From IMG/VR virus record IMGVR_UViG_3300033148_002382, positions 1 to 21,509 of that record: a stretch of 21,509 bases of DNA; one strand, given 5' to 3'. The stretch comes from a virus. The notes under the pieces were generated by a model. The model did no database searches. It was not told the DNA's origin and saw only the letters and a program-made list of their open reading frames with translations. Position numbers and translations under genes: made by a program. Of the stretch, positions 1 to 16,590 are shown piece by piece (within the stretch, counting starts at the first letter, position 1; each line of letters begins with the position of its first letter).

Positions 1-40
1 TTTTTTATCGTTGTTTTTCAATGACTTACAACTAGGTGAT

Positions 41-137
41 CGGGACATTTGCTTTTGTCCCGCATGTCCCGTTAGGCCAAAATAGCGGGACATTTGGTGT
101 TTTTGAAAAAGGGCTAAATGTCCCGCTAAATGTCCCG
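41..137. repeat. Iteron-like array, candidate replication origin
   Basis: Six exact copies of a 7-bp motif occur in 97 bp: CGGGACA at 41-47 and 86-92, and its complement TGTCCCG at 56-62, 65-71, 119-125 and 131-137. The last two lie in a perfect 12-bp tandem repeat, CTAAATGTCCCG, at 114-125 and 126-137. The copy at 84-95 (AGCGGGACATTT) forms a perfect 12-bp inverted repeat with 116-127. The array ends just beyond the primase-helicase stop codon, and AT-rich sequence flanks it at 1-40. Iterons next to a replication initiator gene are a known origin layout; origin function here is inferred. The hairpins could instead help end leftward transcription, but no U-run follows them. Confidence 0.55.
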
Positions 138-139
138 CT

Positions 140-2080
140 CTATTCGCCAATTTTTTGCACCGTTTTATCGTCAAAAATACGAATATAGCCCATAGATTCG
201 AGCTGCTTTAATGACCGGCTAAACGCTTTCTTTTTCGCCTCTTGTGATGATGTTGAGTTGTCGCTGTGACAATAAAAGTTCTTCCGCAACTCATCTTGCG
301 TGATCTCCCCCTCCATACCATCGACTATATCCATCAGTGCTTGGTCTTTGCCTTTTAGCTTTGTTGTCGATCTCATAATGTCACCGAATGTCGCCGCTAC
401 TGGCACCAAGGTTCTGAGCGGTCGGTTTTTGTGATCTGTGAGGCCGTCAAGCTCCACCGATTCCATTTTAAGCGTTACATCCTTAAACGGTGCGGCATCC
501 TTTGACTTGGTGCATGAAATCCTGACCACGCTCTCCACCGAGCCGCTGATTGAAATCTCAAAGTCCGATGCCGCCTTAAATGCCGACGATCCACGAGCAC
601 CCCTTTCCTCATCCTTGCCGGTGTGGTGCACTACCAGAATCGTGCAGCCGAATAGCTCCTTTAGCTCGTCACACCCCCTGATGAACATGGATGAGTCCTT
701 TACTGTGTTTTCGTCCCCTGCCATTGATCGTGCCAGGGTATCGACCACAATCATTGATACCTGTTGCCCGGTAGCGTCGATCAATCCTTTGATTGCTGTC
801 TTGATGTCCGCCCGGTCTTTATCGTTGTCCAGCAGCACCCCCGTTGGTAATACCCGCATGTTTGGCACCCGTTTGCCGTGGATCTGCTCCCATGCGCGCT
901 TTCTGACCCTTAAACCCCTGCCACCCTCTGCTGATATATAAACAACTTGGCTTGCGCTTGTTCCCTCGAATCCCTGCCAAGGCATCCCAGCGGCGATGTG
1001 CATTGCCTTGTCGAGTGCCGCGAATGATTTGCCGGTTCCACTTGGCCCATACATGATCCCGAATGACTCACCTGGGATCACATCGTCGATTAGCCAAGGT
1101 TGCGCTGCGATCATGTTGAGCTCAACATCATCATCTGCGAGCAACATATCGAGCAGTTTTTCCCGCTTTGGTACTGCAACGATGGTTGATTCTTGTATCT
1201 CTGCCGAACCTTCGAATGTGACCGGCGCGATCCAGCCGCCATTCTCTGCGTGTCTTGCCAGGGTTGCCAGCGTGATTGGGTCGCCGCCATGCTTGCCGAA
1301 TGATTGCCAGTGACGGTCTAGGTTCTCGATCCCTTTGTACTTCTCCCCTTTACTGCTCCATGCGTCCCAAAGGTCTAGCCCGGTTCCGCTTGTTGCGTGA
1401 TGCAGCGCCATCCCGATCTGCACCCACTCTTCATAATCGCCGTCAGGATTGATAAAGCGCAACATGTCGGCCATCTGCTCATCCGATACGGTCATTTCCT
1501 CGCCATCAATAAATCCTTTGGAGATTGGCTCACGCTTCAACTTGGCGACTAATCCTGCCGGGGCCTGATTCATATCACATGGATTACCCTTGTCTATGTC
1601 ATAGGTTAGCCCTGATGCGTGAAGCGAACCGGCCCCAACCACAAACCCGCTGGTCTTGAAGTCAATTCCCGGAAATTCTGGTAAATGCTGCATGAATGAT
1701 CCGGGAGGTCTAGCAAAATAGATATGCCTGCCGCCTCCACCCGTGTTGACCACAAAATCCGATTCTTTTACAAAATCAATCCCGCTGGCCTCAACCATTT
1801 TATCAAATGATTCGTTGCCGCCGTTCCTTGGATCAATGTCGATCACTAGCTGATCATCAATGCAAACCCCAAAGCCGGTGGTGATAATGTCATATTCGAT
1901 CAGGTTGTCGATCTGCTGCTCTGTCCAGCGTGGCGTTGTCTGCCAACTATTTATCTGCGGATGTTTGCCGACCGCTTGGCATCTTAGATCTCCGCACCCA
2001 CACGCGCCATCCTTTATAGTATGGAGCTGGAAAACCCTGAATCCAGCTTCGAGGTAATCATAAATAGTGTCAATCGACAT
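140..2080 (-). CDS. Prim-pol primase / RepA-like helicase fusion
   Basis: Putative replication initiator that primes and unwinds phage DNA. The 646-residue protein starts with a bifunctional primase-polymerase domain (about 1-180): a Cys cluster at C27, C29 and C34 ahead of GKHP, the metal-binding DID of IDIDPRNGG near 80-87, GGGGRH at 114-119, and a GFVVGAGSLHASG strand near 145-157. A PriCT-type primase C-terminal region follows (about 198-282). The RepA/AAA_25 ATPase has Walker A GPSGTGKS (345-352), Walker B MIVVDT (443-448) and VVHHTGK near 483-489. Residues 576-646 look like a winged-helix DNA-binding end. It shares the leftward transcript with the upstream Cro-like gene, 3 nt away, and its 3' end abuts the repeat array. 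The fold assignment is strong; the initiator role is inferred. Confidence 0.9.
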   Translation of the reverse strand: MSIDTIYDYLEAGFRVFQLHTIKDGACGCGDLRCQAVGKHPQINSWQTTPRWTEQQIDNLIEYDIITTGFGVCIDDQLVIDIDPRNGGNESFDKMVEASGIDFVKESDFVVNTGGGGRHIYFARPPGSFMQHLPEFPGIDFKTSGFVVGAGSLHASGLTYDIDKGNPCDMNQAPAGLVAKLKREPISKGFIDGEEMTVSDEQMADMLRFINPDGDYEEWVQIGMALHHATSGTGLDLWDAWSSKGEKYKGIENLDRHWQSFGKHGGDPITLATLARHAENGGWIAPVTFEGSAEIQESTIVAVPKREKLLDMLLADDDVELNMIAAQPWLIDDVIPGESFGIMYGPSGTGKSFAALDKAMHIAAGMPWQGFEGTSASQVVYISAEGGRGLRVRKRAWEQIHGKRVPNMRVLPTGVLLDNDKDRADIKTAIKGLIDATGQQVSMIVVDTLARSMAGDENTVKDSSMFIRGCDELKELFGCTILVVHHTGKDEERGARGSSAFKAASDFEISISGSVESVVRISCTKSKDAAPFKDVTLKMESVELDGLTDHKNRPLRTLVPVAATFGDIMRSTTKLKGKDQALMDIVDGMEGEITQDELRKNFYCHSDNSTSSQEAKKKAFSRSLKQLESMGYIRIFDDKTVQKIGE

Positions 2081-6256: not shown

Positions 6257-6946
6257 ATGGGAAAGCCAATAATCAATATGATAGGAAAAAAAATCAATAG
6301 ATTGCTTGTTATTGATTTAGCCAAAAAATCTAAAAACTCAACACAGACCGGAAAATTCTGGTTATGTAAATGCGATTGCGGAAATGAAGTTGTAATTGAT
6401 GGCAGGGCTATAAGAAGTGGCAAAACAAAATCATGCGGCTGCTATAAACGAGACAGCTCATCAGCCAGCATGAAAAAAATGAGATTAAAGCAATCCGGCA
6501 CTATCGAGGATAGATTTTTATCGAGATTCAAAAAAGGTAAAAAAGATGATTGCTGGAATTGGCTGGCTCACTTAGACAAAGATGGCTACGGAATATTGCC
6601 AGCTAATGGGCCGGCAATAAGAGCGCACAGATATTCATTTGAACATTATAATAATACGATCCCTGTTGGAATGAACATTTGCCATAAATGCGATAATCCG
6701 TCATGCGTCAATCCACATCATTTATTTCTTGGGACAGGCAAAGATAATGTTCACGACATGCTCAATAAAAGGCGTGACGCGATAGTTGGATCAAAAAACA
6801 ATAAAGCAAAATTATCTGAAATTGATATTCTAAAAATAAGAAAATCAAATAAATCAACGCAAAAATTGATGATTGAATATGGCGTAAGTAAATCAACAAT
6901 AAATAGAGTAAAGGCTAAAAAAACATGGAGACATGTTGATGATTGA
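6257..6946 (+). CDS. HNH homing-type endonuclease
   Basis: A 229-residue free-standing HNH nuclease. An N-terminal Cys knuckle (C37, C39, C41, C60, C62: LCKCDCG and SCGC) is followed by an HNH_3-type core at about 97-165: CWNW, HRYSFEH, then ICHKCDNPSCVNPHHLFLGT. Residues 185-227 form a C-terminal helix-turn-helix-like DNA-binding segment. The gene is richer in A than its neighbours, carries its own promoter, and ends 8 nt inside the likely start of the helicase gene, all signs of insertion. Homing nucleases of this kind cut intron- or element-free alleles in mixed infections. The HNH assignment is firm; the target is unknown. Confidence 0.88.
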   Translation: MGKPIINMIGKKINRLLVIDLAKKSKNSTQTGKFWLCKCDCGNEVVIDGRAIRSGKTKSCGCYKRDSSSASMKKMRLKQSGTIEDRFLSRFKKGKKDDCWNWLAHLDKDGYGILPANGPAIRAHRYSFEHYNNTIPVGMNICHKCDNPSCVNPHHLFLGTGKDNVHDMLNKRRDAIVGSKNNKAKLSEIDILKIRKSNKSTQKLMIEYGVSKSTINRVKAKKTWRHVDD

Positions 6947-10032: not shown

Positions 10033-10240
10033 AATCAGAGACATGATGCGAGAGGGTAATTCAGTCGGTGAGATTGTTGATGCCGCCATTAAGCTGGAGC
10101 AATACAATATTCGCCAAGAGGCGCTAGATGAGGTTGTCGCCCTGATGATCAGGTGGATGGGTGATCACCAAGGGTATGTCGAACAGTGTCGCGGTGTCGG
10201 CATGGTTATTGATTTAATTGAGGGATTGAAAGATGAGTAA
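10022..10240 (+). CDS. Hypothetical small early protein
   Basis: A 72-residue acidic, helical protein with no membrane segment. Residues 1-30 (MDTKIRDMMREGNSVGEIVD) read like a small helix-loop-helix, and the rest is amphipathic helix. It is embedded in a chain of overlapping genes: 11 nt with the gene before and 8 nt with the PAPS-reductase-like gene after, which indicates translational coupling. No known domain seen. Confidence 0.6.
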   Translation: MDTKIRDMMREGNSVGEIVDAAIKLEQYNIRQEALDEVVALMIRWMGDHQGYVEQCRGVGMVIDLIEGLKDE

Positions 10241-10988
10241 GAAAGAAACCATTGCCGTATGGTTCTCATGTGGAGCCGCAAGTGCGGTGGCTGCTAAAAA
10301 GACAATAGAGCAATATGGCAATACTTGCGAAGTCAGGGTTATCAATAACCCTATAGTAGAAGAGGATGAGGACAATCAAAGGTTCCTTAGAGATGTTGAG
10401 AAATGGCTTGGTGTGCCGATAGAAATTGCAATCAATAGCAAATATGATTCATGTTCGGCTGTCGATGTTTGGGAGAAGAGGCAATACATGTCTGGCGTGA
10501 GTGGTGCGCCATGTACGCTTGAGCTAAAGAAGGTGGCTCGCCAACAATACGAAATGGATCACGACATTGACTGGCACGTTTTAGGGTTTACATCTGAGGA
10601 AGAGAAAAGATTTTGCAACTTCCAATCGAAAGAGAGATCGAATACTCTGCCTGTATTAATTGAGCACGGGCTGTCAAAATCAGATTGCTATAGAATCTTA
10701 CAAGATGCCGGAATAACGCCGCCGAGAATCTACGAGATGGGCTATCCTAACGCTAATTGCATCGGGTGCGTGAAAGCCACATCACCAACATATTGGAACC
10801 ATGTAAGAAAAATGCACCCCGTTATATTTAACGACAGAGCCATTCAATCAAGAATGATTGGAGCAAGACTTGTTAGAGTGAAGGGCGAAAGAATATTTCT
10901 TGATGAGCTTTCGCCAGGGGCAAAGGGCAGGCCAATGAAGAATCTTGATTTTGAGTGTGGTATATTTTGTCATACAGGAGAAGAATGA
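10233..10988 (+). CDS. PAPS-reductase-like PP-loop protein
   Basis: A 251-residue member of the adenine nucleotide alpha-hydrolase (PP-loop) group related to PAPS reductase and DndC-type proteins. The PP-loop is WFSCGAASAVAAK (10-22), in the SCGAASA form seen in phage copies rather than the usual SGGKDS. Other landmarks are APCTLELKK (92-100), LGFTSEEEKRF (117-127), NCIGCVKATSPTYW (175-188) and a terminal ECGIFC (241-246). Cysteines C94, C176, C179, C242 and C246 could hold an iron-sulfur cluster. The family usually activates a substrate with ATP for sulfur transfer or reduction; the phage substrate is not known. It might modify nucleic acid or act in sulfur metabolism. Confidence 0.8.
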   Translation: MSKKETIAVWFSCGAASAVAAKKTIEQYGNTCEVRVINNPIVEEDEDNQRFLRDVEKWLGVPIEIAINSKYDSCSAVDVWEKRQYMSGVSGAPCTLELKKVARQQYEMDHDIDWHVLGFTSEEEKRFCNFQSKERSNTLPVLIEHGLSKSDCYRILQDAGITPPRIYEMGYPNANCIGCVKATSPTYWNHVRKMHPVIFNDRAIQSRMIGARLVRVKGERIFLDELSPGAKGRPMKNLDFECGIFCHTGEE

Positions 10989-15318: not shown

Positions 15319-15959
15319 TATTTCATTATCCCATATAGTTTAAAGTTGCCAGAATATATATTCCCAGAACTCATAATTAAGCGTATGGCATTAACAACTA
15401 ATGACGCAGAGAATATTCCTGAACGGGTAGCAATCTTCTCGATCCCAGACGCATCCCATTGATGAGCAATTGAGCGTAATTTAACATCTTTAGAGGCGTT
15501 GCTTGGGTCTATAAGTCGCAGCTCGCCAGACACGCCACCAATTGAGGATGTTGAATGAATATTGTCTGCGATCAGAATGTAGGTGTAATATGTGCCGCCA
15601 GTACGATAATCAGTAGCACCTGACTTAAAGGTTGAGCCGTTGTCATTAGAAAATCTAGCGCGTAAGGAAGCTCCGCCTGTTGCTGCCACTAATCCTGAGA
15701 CTAAAAAGATGTATTCATCGTAGGTACTATCAATTACAGATGTGAAATCTATAGATGAGTCGTTAGATGCGTCTGTCTCTTGGAGTAATACCCATGTTTT
15801 TGTTCCAGCCTCAAGCGCCGCTCTTGCCACCGACGGTGCGCCACTTGCCCCCTCGGTAATTGCTATAGGATTATCACGGAGCAGCGTCATCAATCCAGTT
15901 GTGATTGGTGAATCAGGATCAATATCCCCATTCGGGATTGATGTGTAGCTAGTTGCCAT
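15318..15959 (-). CDS. Tail fibre / receptor-binding-like protein
   Basis: A 213-residue tail protein with a PNGDIDPDSPITTGLMTLLR opening and DNPIAITEGASGAPSV, a pattern found at the start of many short phage tail fibres or tip proteins. After it comes a beta-rich Ser/Thr/Gly region (about 55-210) that looks like a jelly-roll or beta-sandwich and may bind the host surface. It is followed by a chaperone-like gene, which fits. Its AAAGGAAA ribosome site lies inside the end of the HNH gene (11-nt overlap). The small size suggests a short fibre, with the receptor unknown. Confidence 0.65.
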   Translation of the reverse strand: MATSYTSIPNGDIDPDSPITTGLMTLLRDNPIAITEGASGAPSVARAALEAGTKTWVLLQETDASNDSSIDFTSVIDSTYDEYIFLVSGLVAATGGASLRARFSNDNGSTFKSGATDYRTGGTYYTYILIADNIHSTSSIGGVSGELRLIDPSNASKDVKLRSIAHQWDASGIEKIATRSGIFSASLVVNAIRLIMSSGNIYSGNFKLYGIMK

Positions 15960-16590
15960 GACGATTTCCTTTACTTAAATTATCCTCTGCTCTCATTAAT
16001 TGAAGATTGCCCTCAACATGGAGCCCGCAAACATTTTTGCCCTGTAGTGGAACTATGTGATCAACATGATAGCCTTTCCCAAAAGTTGCCATAGTCAAGA
16101 ATGACGCCATAACATACTTGGACTTGATGGCCTTGTCATCAGCCCATGATGGGGTTGCATGCAACAGCATTGCCCTGCGCTTTGCTGCCGAAGCGGCCTC
16201 GATAGGAGCACTTGATGGCTTCGCCCTCCACCTTCCTTTAGCTGTCTTTACTTTACCGGCATTTGCTGCACGCCACTCCCCAGCTACTGCATTGGCTCTT
16301 ATTCTGTTTGCCGCTCTCCATGCCTTGCTATTTTCAGCGTGCCTTTCTTTATTTTCCTCTCTCCACCTCTTGCATAAGGCGTTATGCTTTTTTTTGTTAG
16401 CCTTGTAATATGCCGCGCTCTCAATTTTAAGCTTGGCCCGCCCTTCTTTTGTATTGGTTCTCAACTTTCCAATCGCGGCAAAACATTTCTTACAATCAGG
16501 TCTGCGCCCCAAAACGCCAGCCTTGCTTTTAGAAAACAGCGCAAGGGCTTTTTCCTCTCCGCACTTTGAGCATATCTTGGCAGCCATCAT
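15949..16590 (-). CDS. HNH endonuclease with repetitive linker
   Basis: A 213-residue protein. The N-terminus has two CxxC pairs (C7/C10 and C33/C36: ICSKCGEEK and CKKC), a likely zinc finger. A basic middle (about 55-130) repeats W-R-E/A-x-N-x-x-like units (KRWREEN, KAWRAAN, GEWRAAN, GRWRAK). The last 40 residues are the HNH core: GYHVDHIVPLQGKNVCGLH, then GNLQLMRAEDNLSKGNRH. It lies between two tail genes, abutting the 76-residue gene and overlapping the fibre-like start by 11 nt. It is probably a homing endonuclease, like the one in the early block. The HNH core is clear; the target is unknown. Confidence 0.82.
   Translation of the reverse strand: MMAAKICSKCGEEKALALFSKSKAGVLGRRPDCKKCFAAIGKLRTNTKEGRAKLKIESAAYYKANKKKHNALCKRWREENKERHAENSKAWRAANRIRANAVAGEWRAANAGKVKTAKGRWRAKPSSAPIEAASAAKRRAMLLHATPSWADDKAIKSKYVMASFLTMATFGKGYHVDHIVPLQGKNVCGLHVEGNLQLMRAEDNLSKGNRHGN

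Follow-up and report, generated by a model that had tools for sequence, protein, structure and literature searches.

The repeat array beside the primase-helicase gene of this phage is likely to consist of iterons that are bound by the C-terminal winged helix of the adjoining primase-helicase, and to be the phage replication origin. This reading was reached by sequence comparison. What the analysis observed is the array itself, its position 3′ of genes of this helicase family, and a word that covaries with helicase residue 618 (and 622); the winged-helix fold is a prediction from models.

The repeat array

The window, the whole stretch of DNA analyzed, is a complete virus contig of 21,509 bases, and its left end falls inside the array. 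The exact-match scan found six copies of CGGGACA/TGTCCCG, at 41–47 (+), 56–62 (−), 65–71 (−), 86–92 (+), 119–125 (−), and 131–137 (−). The copy nearest the gene lies 2 nt past the primase-helicase stop codon. One further copy of CGGGACA was present in the whole window outside the array, compared with 1.49 expected by shuffling. The scan agreed with the preliminary description, which had reported six exact copies within 41–137, right after the prim-pol/helicase gene and beside AT-rich DNA. The two 12-bp repeats described there were also exact, a tandem repeat at 113–124/125–136 and an inverted repeat, AGCGGGACATTT (84–95) and AAATGTCCCGCT (116–127), with a 20-nt spacer.

A second contig, L007, overlapped window positions 1–68 with no mismatch and extended the sequence leftward. 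It contributed three further copies, TGTCCCGTTTTGTCCCGATGTCCCG, at L007 4985–5009, outside the window. The count of six was therefore correct for the window, but the array is larger: the intergenic region holds nine copies in about 170 bp, as sets of six and three around an AT-rich spacer. This spacer is 45 nt long (window 1–40 plus 5 nt from L007) and is 71% AT, compared with 53% for the genome. By a Poisson estimate, the chance of a nine-copy array was about 3e-21 for CGGGACA and about 3e-15 once all words and positions were corrected for. No second CGGGACA array was found in the 26.5 kb of joined sequence (window and L007), and a search of viral contigs for an exact 25-nt array sequence gave no match.

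A strain variant, L005, came from the same metagenome as L007. Compared with window 1–142, L005:3999–4141 differed in one array copy (TGTCCCC at window 119–125), with GTTTTGTCCCCC in place of one copy of the 12-bp tandem unit and the rest kept. Because L005 does not conserve the tandem unit, this unit is a strain-specific detail; judged from the two strains, it is turnover of single iterons.

The primase-helicase and its C-terminal domain

The primase-helicase gene (140–2080, minus strand) encodes 646 amino acids. Pfam domains and AlphaFold2 models divided the protein into Prim-Pol (residues 8–174), PriCT_2 (204–278), an AAA_25/RepA-type helicase (306–491; AAA_25 E-value 6e-39), and a C-terminal winged helix (about 565–646), the last part having no Pfam coverage. 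RSF1010 RepA (1g8y) was the only solved relative found by sequence, and its match was confined to the ATPase part. Residues 300–646, modeled from a 63-row alignment, reached a pLDDT of 90 and showed the RepA fold followed by a helix-helix-helix-strand-strand order, which is that of a winged helix. The best structural match of the ATPase core was 1OLO/1G8Y, with Z of about 23 over 222/215 residues. The tail modeled alone was less confident (pLDDT 68) and kept its topology. A structure search with the winged helix matched nothing beyond general folds of that class (ORC, cullin, MukF, and Fur, with Z up to 11), and no specific initiator was among the neighbors.

The C-terminus is thus predicted to fold as a winged helix of about 80 residues. 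Its coding part (143–388, minus strand) was assigned as the predicted iteron reader from the models, the fold neighbors, and the covariation described below. The recognition helix (residues 613–629; 194–244, minus strand) was placed by the model and the covariation. It contains EAKKKAFSRS, with Lys618, the putative reader of base 4 (codon 227–229), and Arg622 (codon 215–217).

Co-occurrence of helicase and array

Viral contigs were scanned for three clustered TGTCCCG words, with the reversed word as control. Both words gave at least 120 contigs, the control through coding repeats, and the raw count was rejected as evidence, as only linkage to the helicase discriminates. Among the matches listed, the RepA/AAA_25 helicase family was present in 43 of 120 TGTCCCG contigs versus 1 of 120 reversed-word contigs, and 41 of those 43 carried the array at the 3′ end of the helicase.

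Selection by word was avoided by gathering 160 loci from viral and genome contigs by the helicase protein alone. An array was defined as at least five copies of one 7-mer within 380 nt around the stop, and same-length windows elsewhere in the same loci served as controls. Under this definition 91 of 154 testable loci had an array, against 6 of 1778 control windows. After later loci and annotated records were added and redundancy was removed, arrays were found at 109 of 189 helicase loci of this family versus 8 of 1762 control windows. The first copy lay at a median of 4.5 nt past the stop (interquartile 1–13) in a search that started 30 nt before it. Most arrays were of mixed orientation (103/108), and the median span was 140 nt. 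The arrays followed the helicase in unrelated gene contexts, namely phages, PICI-like islands, and plasmids. About 40% of the helicase loci had no array of five or more copies, though most of them have the C-terminal domain. This domain does not alone predict an array, since nearly all members have it and those without it are too few for a contrast. The iteron reading in the preliminary description is strongly supported by this linkage and by the covariation.

At L055:1315–1459 and L106:10184–10328 the array sits inside the final 230 nt of the helicase ORF, and its repeats thus also encode part of the protein tail. In many alphaproteobacterial relatives (L371, L267, L276, L302), the arrays 3′ of the stop hold a conserved hairpin, formed by two words around CACCTCTAGGAGGTG.

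Covariation of the array word with the recognition helix

The word of the array was lineage-dependent and included CGGGACA, CGTCACA, CGTGACA, CGTAACR, CGTTACA, CGTTACC, CGTTCCC, CGAAACA, AAGTGGG, AAGTGAG, GTGCGGC, and GTGAGGA, among others. In Klebsiella, E. coli, and Salmonella, PICI-like islands that bear capsid genes had a helicase of this family with GTGCGGC or AAGTGAG-type words. A search of relatives for the same motif downstream of the primase gene had been suggested as a check; the array was often kept, but the word often differed. Because relatives often keep the array and not the word, absence of the motif from them does not count as a refutation.

Alignment A1, with 36 diverse helicases, had diverged too far to be scanned by back-translation, and the tighter alignments A2 and A4 were used. 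Covariation was calculated for 16 alphaproteobacterial helicases (75% mean identity, four words, 362 columns). The top column of the 362 was the recognition-helix residue two before a conserved Phe (MI 1.37, z 6.8), and further high-z columns fell in the same recognition-helix region. In the enlarged locus set, this residue covaried with base 4 of CGTnAC with z 12.1; the residue-base counts were Thr-C 13, Gln-G 8, Val-T 2, Met-A 2, Met-C 2, and Ala-C 1.

For CG-type arrays, Thr went with CGTCACA, Gln with CGTGACA, Val with CGTTACA, and Lys or Arg with CGGGACA. A second residue refined this rule. Lys at the key position went with CGGGACA where the following Arg was kept and with CGTTACC where that Arg was replaced by Ala, Ser, or Val, and Thr or Ser with Lys in place of the Arg went with CGTTCCC. 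The window helicase, with Lys618, Arg622, and CGGGACA, agrees with the rule and with CGGGACA helicases generally. The Lys/Arg-CGGGACA class was gathered largely by the word itself; of the seven CGGGACA helicases found by protein, six had Lys or Arg.

Outside the 16 derivation helicases, Gln was paired with CGTGACA in 6/6 loci (L251, L445, L466, L472, L473, L479), and Thr with an intact Arg was paired with CGTCACA in 6/6 (L427, L443, L444, L459, L468, L477); some of these loci are close kin of the derivation helicases, such as L443 with 98% identity to L370, and others share only 50–53% identity. Exceptions were L310 (Thr with CGGGACA) and Met, for which both CGTAAC and CGTCAC occurred. A tree of the ATPase part required a minimum of 14 changes in base 4 and 17 in the residue. 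All five independent pairs from branches with good support were concordant (p = 0.0625), a small test limited by the number of pairs. Three helicases with near-identical ATPase parts (L451, L282, and L448) had three different residue-word pairs, which looks like a swap of tail and array as one unit.

The covariation could in principle reflect a module that is inherited together; functional matching is favored by the fact that helicases that are nearly identical have switched repeatedly. We take the residue-base rule as comparative evidence for recognition of the word by the winged helix. Binding of the array by the primase-helicase, as first proposed, is strongly supported by comparison, but the reader is most likely the C-terminal winged helix of the helicase half and not the primase.

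Proposed mechanism and alternative roles

From these observations we infer direct binding, loading of hexamers, melting, priming, and activity as an origin. Several helicase protomers would dock on the mixed-orientation iterons and form hexamers next to the AT-rich spacer. This spacer would then open, the RepA-type (SF4) motor would load on the single strands, and the fused Prim-Pol domain would prime. A GC-skew switch had been suggested as a mark of the origin. None was present at the array, and the skew minimum lay near window position 2500, where gene direction changes; GC skew tracks gene direction and was set aside as an uninformative marker.

It is possible, but unlikely, that the array is bound by the helicase to govern copy number or incompatibility, in the manner of P1 incA or P4 crr, and that the origin lies at another site. 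P1 has such a control iteron set downstream of repA, and the covariation evidence for binding fits an origin and a control locus equally. The single CGGGACA array in the joined sequence argues against this role, as do the two sets around an AT-rich spacer, which is the layout of tested PICI origins (PMC6092414). It is still less probable that the array is an operator for a phage regulator, either the YdaS-like product of 2084–2329 or that of a ribbon-helix-helix-like ORF past the array, controlling the packaging-side operon. A sigma-70-like promoter (TTGATA-16-TATAAT) does lie beyond the array and reads away from it, but arrays accompany the helicase in unrelated contexts and their word covaries with a helicase residue. 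A transcription terminator or structured RNA that ends the primase transcript was rejected as very improbable. The transcript strand does fold better than shuffled sequence (z −4.3), which is expected of any mixed-orientation repeat. Against this role, the primase strand has no terminator-like site (GC stem and T run) within the array, Rfam gave no match, some copies in relatives share one orientation, some of their arrays fall within the coding 3′ end, and a residue covaries with the word.

Comparison with known replicons

The C-terminal domain of SaPI Rep recognizes an origin downstream of its gene, and that of SCCmec Cch2 binds repeats after the cch2 gene (PMC7581432). PICI origins lie directly 3′ of the initiator gene, with two iteron sets around an AT-rich stretch, and were tested on plasmids for EcCICFT073 (PMC6092414), the only case in which autonomous replication from the gene with its repeats was shown, and one with a different helicase. 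The window resembles these islands (SaPIbov1, EcCICFT073) in the short repeats directly 3′ of the helicase gene (2 nt past the stop), in the two iteron sets flanking an AT-rich region (six and three, around 45 nt of 71% AT), and in the predicted reading of iterons by the C-terminal domain of the helicase, with a putative origin role in the window. Their helicases are of the DUF927 or D5 type (SF3), whereas that of the window is AAA_25 with the RSF1010 RepA fold (SF4). Pri-Rep of EcCICFT073 matched D5_N/Pox_D5 in Pfam and had GGTAGA-like repeats 3′ of its gene; this architecture is thus also seen with a helicase from another family. The islands carry int and alpA and lack tail genes, whereas the window belongs to a tailed phage: it encodes a tail tape measure and a tail protein, and L007 adds a terminase.

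RSF1010 RepA shares the hexameric SF4 ATPase core with the window helicase. The 279-residue RepA matches only the ATPase part, whereas the window helicase has the winged-helix tail. RSF1010 uses separate primase, helicase, and iteron-binding (RepC) proteins (PMC4234260). In contrast, the window has primase, helicase, and winged helix on one chain, and its iterons are 7–10 bp. ORF904 of pRN1 combines Prim-Pol, helicase, and a C-terminal winged helix, and a region immediately after its gene is essential (PMC4234260). This archaeal plasmid protein has the same domain order as the window protein, again with an element just 3′ of the gene. The pRN1 element is a 100-nt stem-loop that is not known to contain iterons, and the helicase is of another type. 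P4 alpha with ori/crr is alike in being a primase-helicase with a C-terminal iteron-binding winged helix and unlike in its SF3-type helicase and TOPRIM primase.

Origins of the lambda O type also have iterons tied to the initiator, but these lie inside the initiator gene in one orientation, whereas all window copies lie downstream of the stop. Same-orientation TGTCCCG repeats with about 11-bp spacing were seen inside lambda O/DnaD-like initiator genes in L043, L047 (5104–5209), L058, L060, L065, L084, and L087. All seven initiators matched phrog_35955, and their arrays are probably lambda-type origins, in which an unrelated initiator type has the same word.

On balance we favor a wider conclusion, that the members of a large, widespread family of SF4 helicases of the RepA type each have their own origin reader (the C-terminal winged helix) and their own origin (the iteron array at the gene 3′ end). 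Specificity would be set mainly by one or two recognition-helix residues and would switch often, and tail and array would act as a lock and key that phages and islands can exchange as one module. In the open-access literature, we found no paper on this pairing of RepA-type helicase and array, which is no proof of novelty. The proposal that a RepA-type helicase reads its own iterons suggests that such helicases can unite roles that are split between RepA and RepC in RSF1010, and it gives the unannotated C-terminal domain a proposed job. The rule needs sequence only and may help to find where replication probably starts in many phages, prophages, and islands that are uncultured; the pairs would also form a compact natural series of protein-DNA recognition (one residue, one base). 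Frequent word switching, if true, would fit selection by incompatibility or by origin-directed nucleases, as reported for PLE/Odn (PMC8263062).

Genome neighborhood

Leftward past the three-copy set, L007 has a GC-rich hairpin, the sigma-70-like promoter, the short ribbon-helix-helix-like ORF, small ORFs, a ParB/N6_N4 methylase, a probable small terminase, and the large terminase. The hairpin (L007:4921–4975; CTCTCCCCCCTCTTAGGGGGGGGGAGA) has long C/G runs, lies between the three-copy set and the next promoter, and is terminator-like on the plus strand. In the early region, window 10233–10988 holds an ORF resembling a phosphoadenosine-phosphosulfate reductase by eye. In Vibrio phage 1.210.O (L248), a gene with this annotation is located directly 3′ of the helicase. 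Two ORFs among the phage genes (window 6257–6946 and 15949–16590) resembled HNH-type homing endonucleases by eye.
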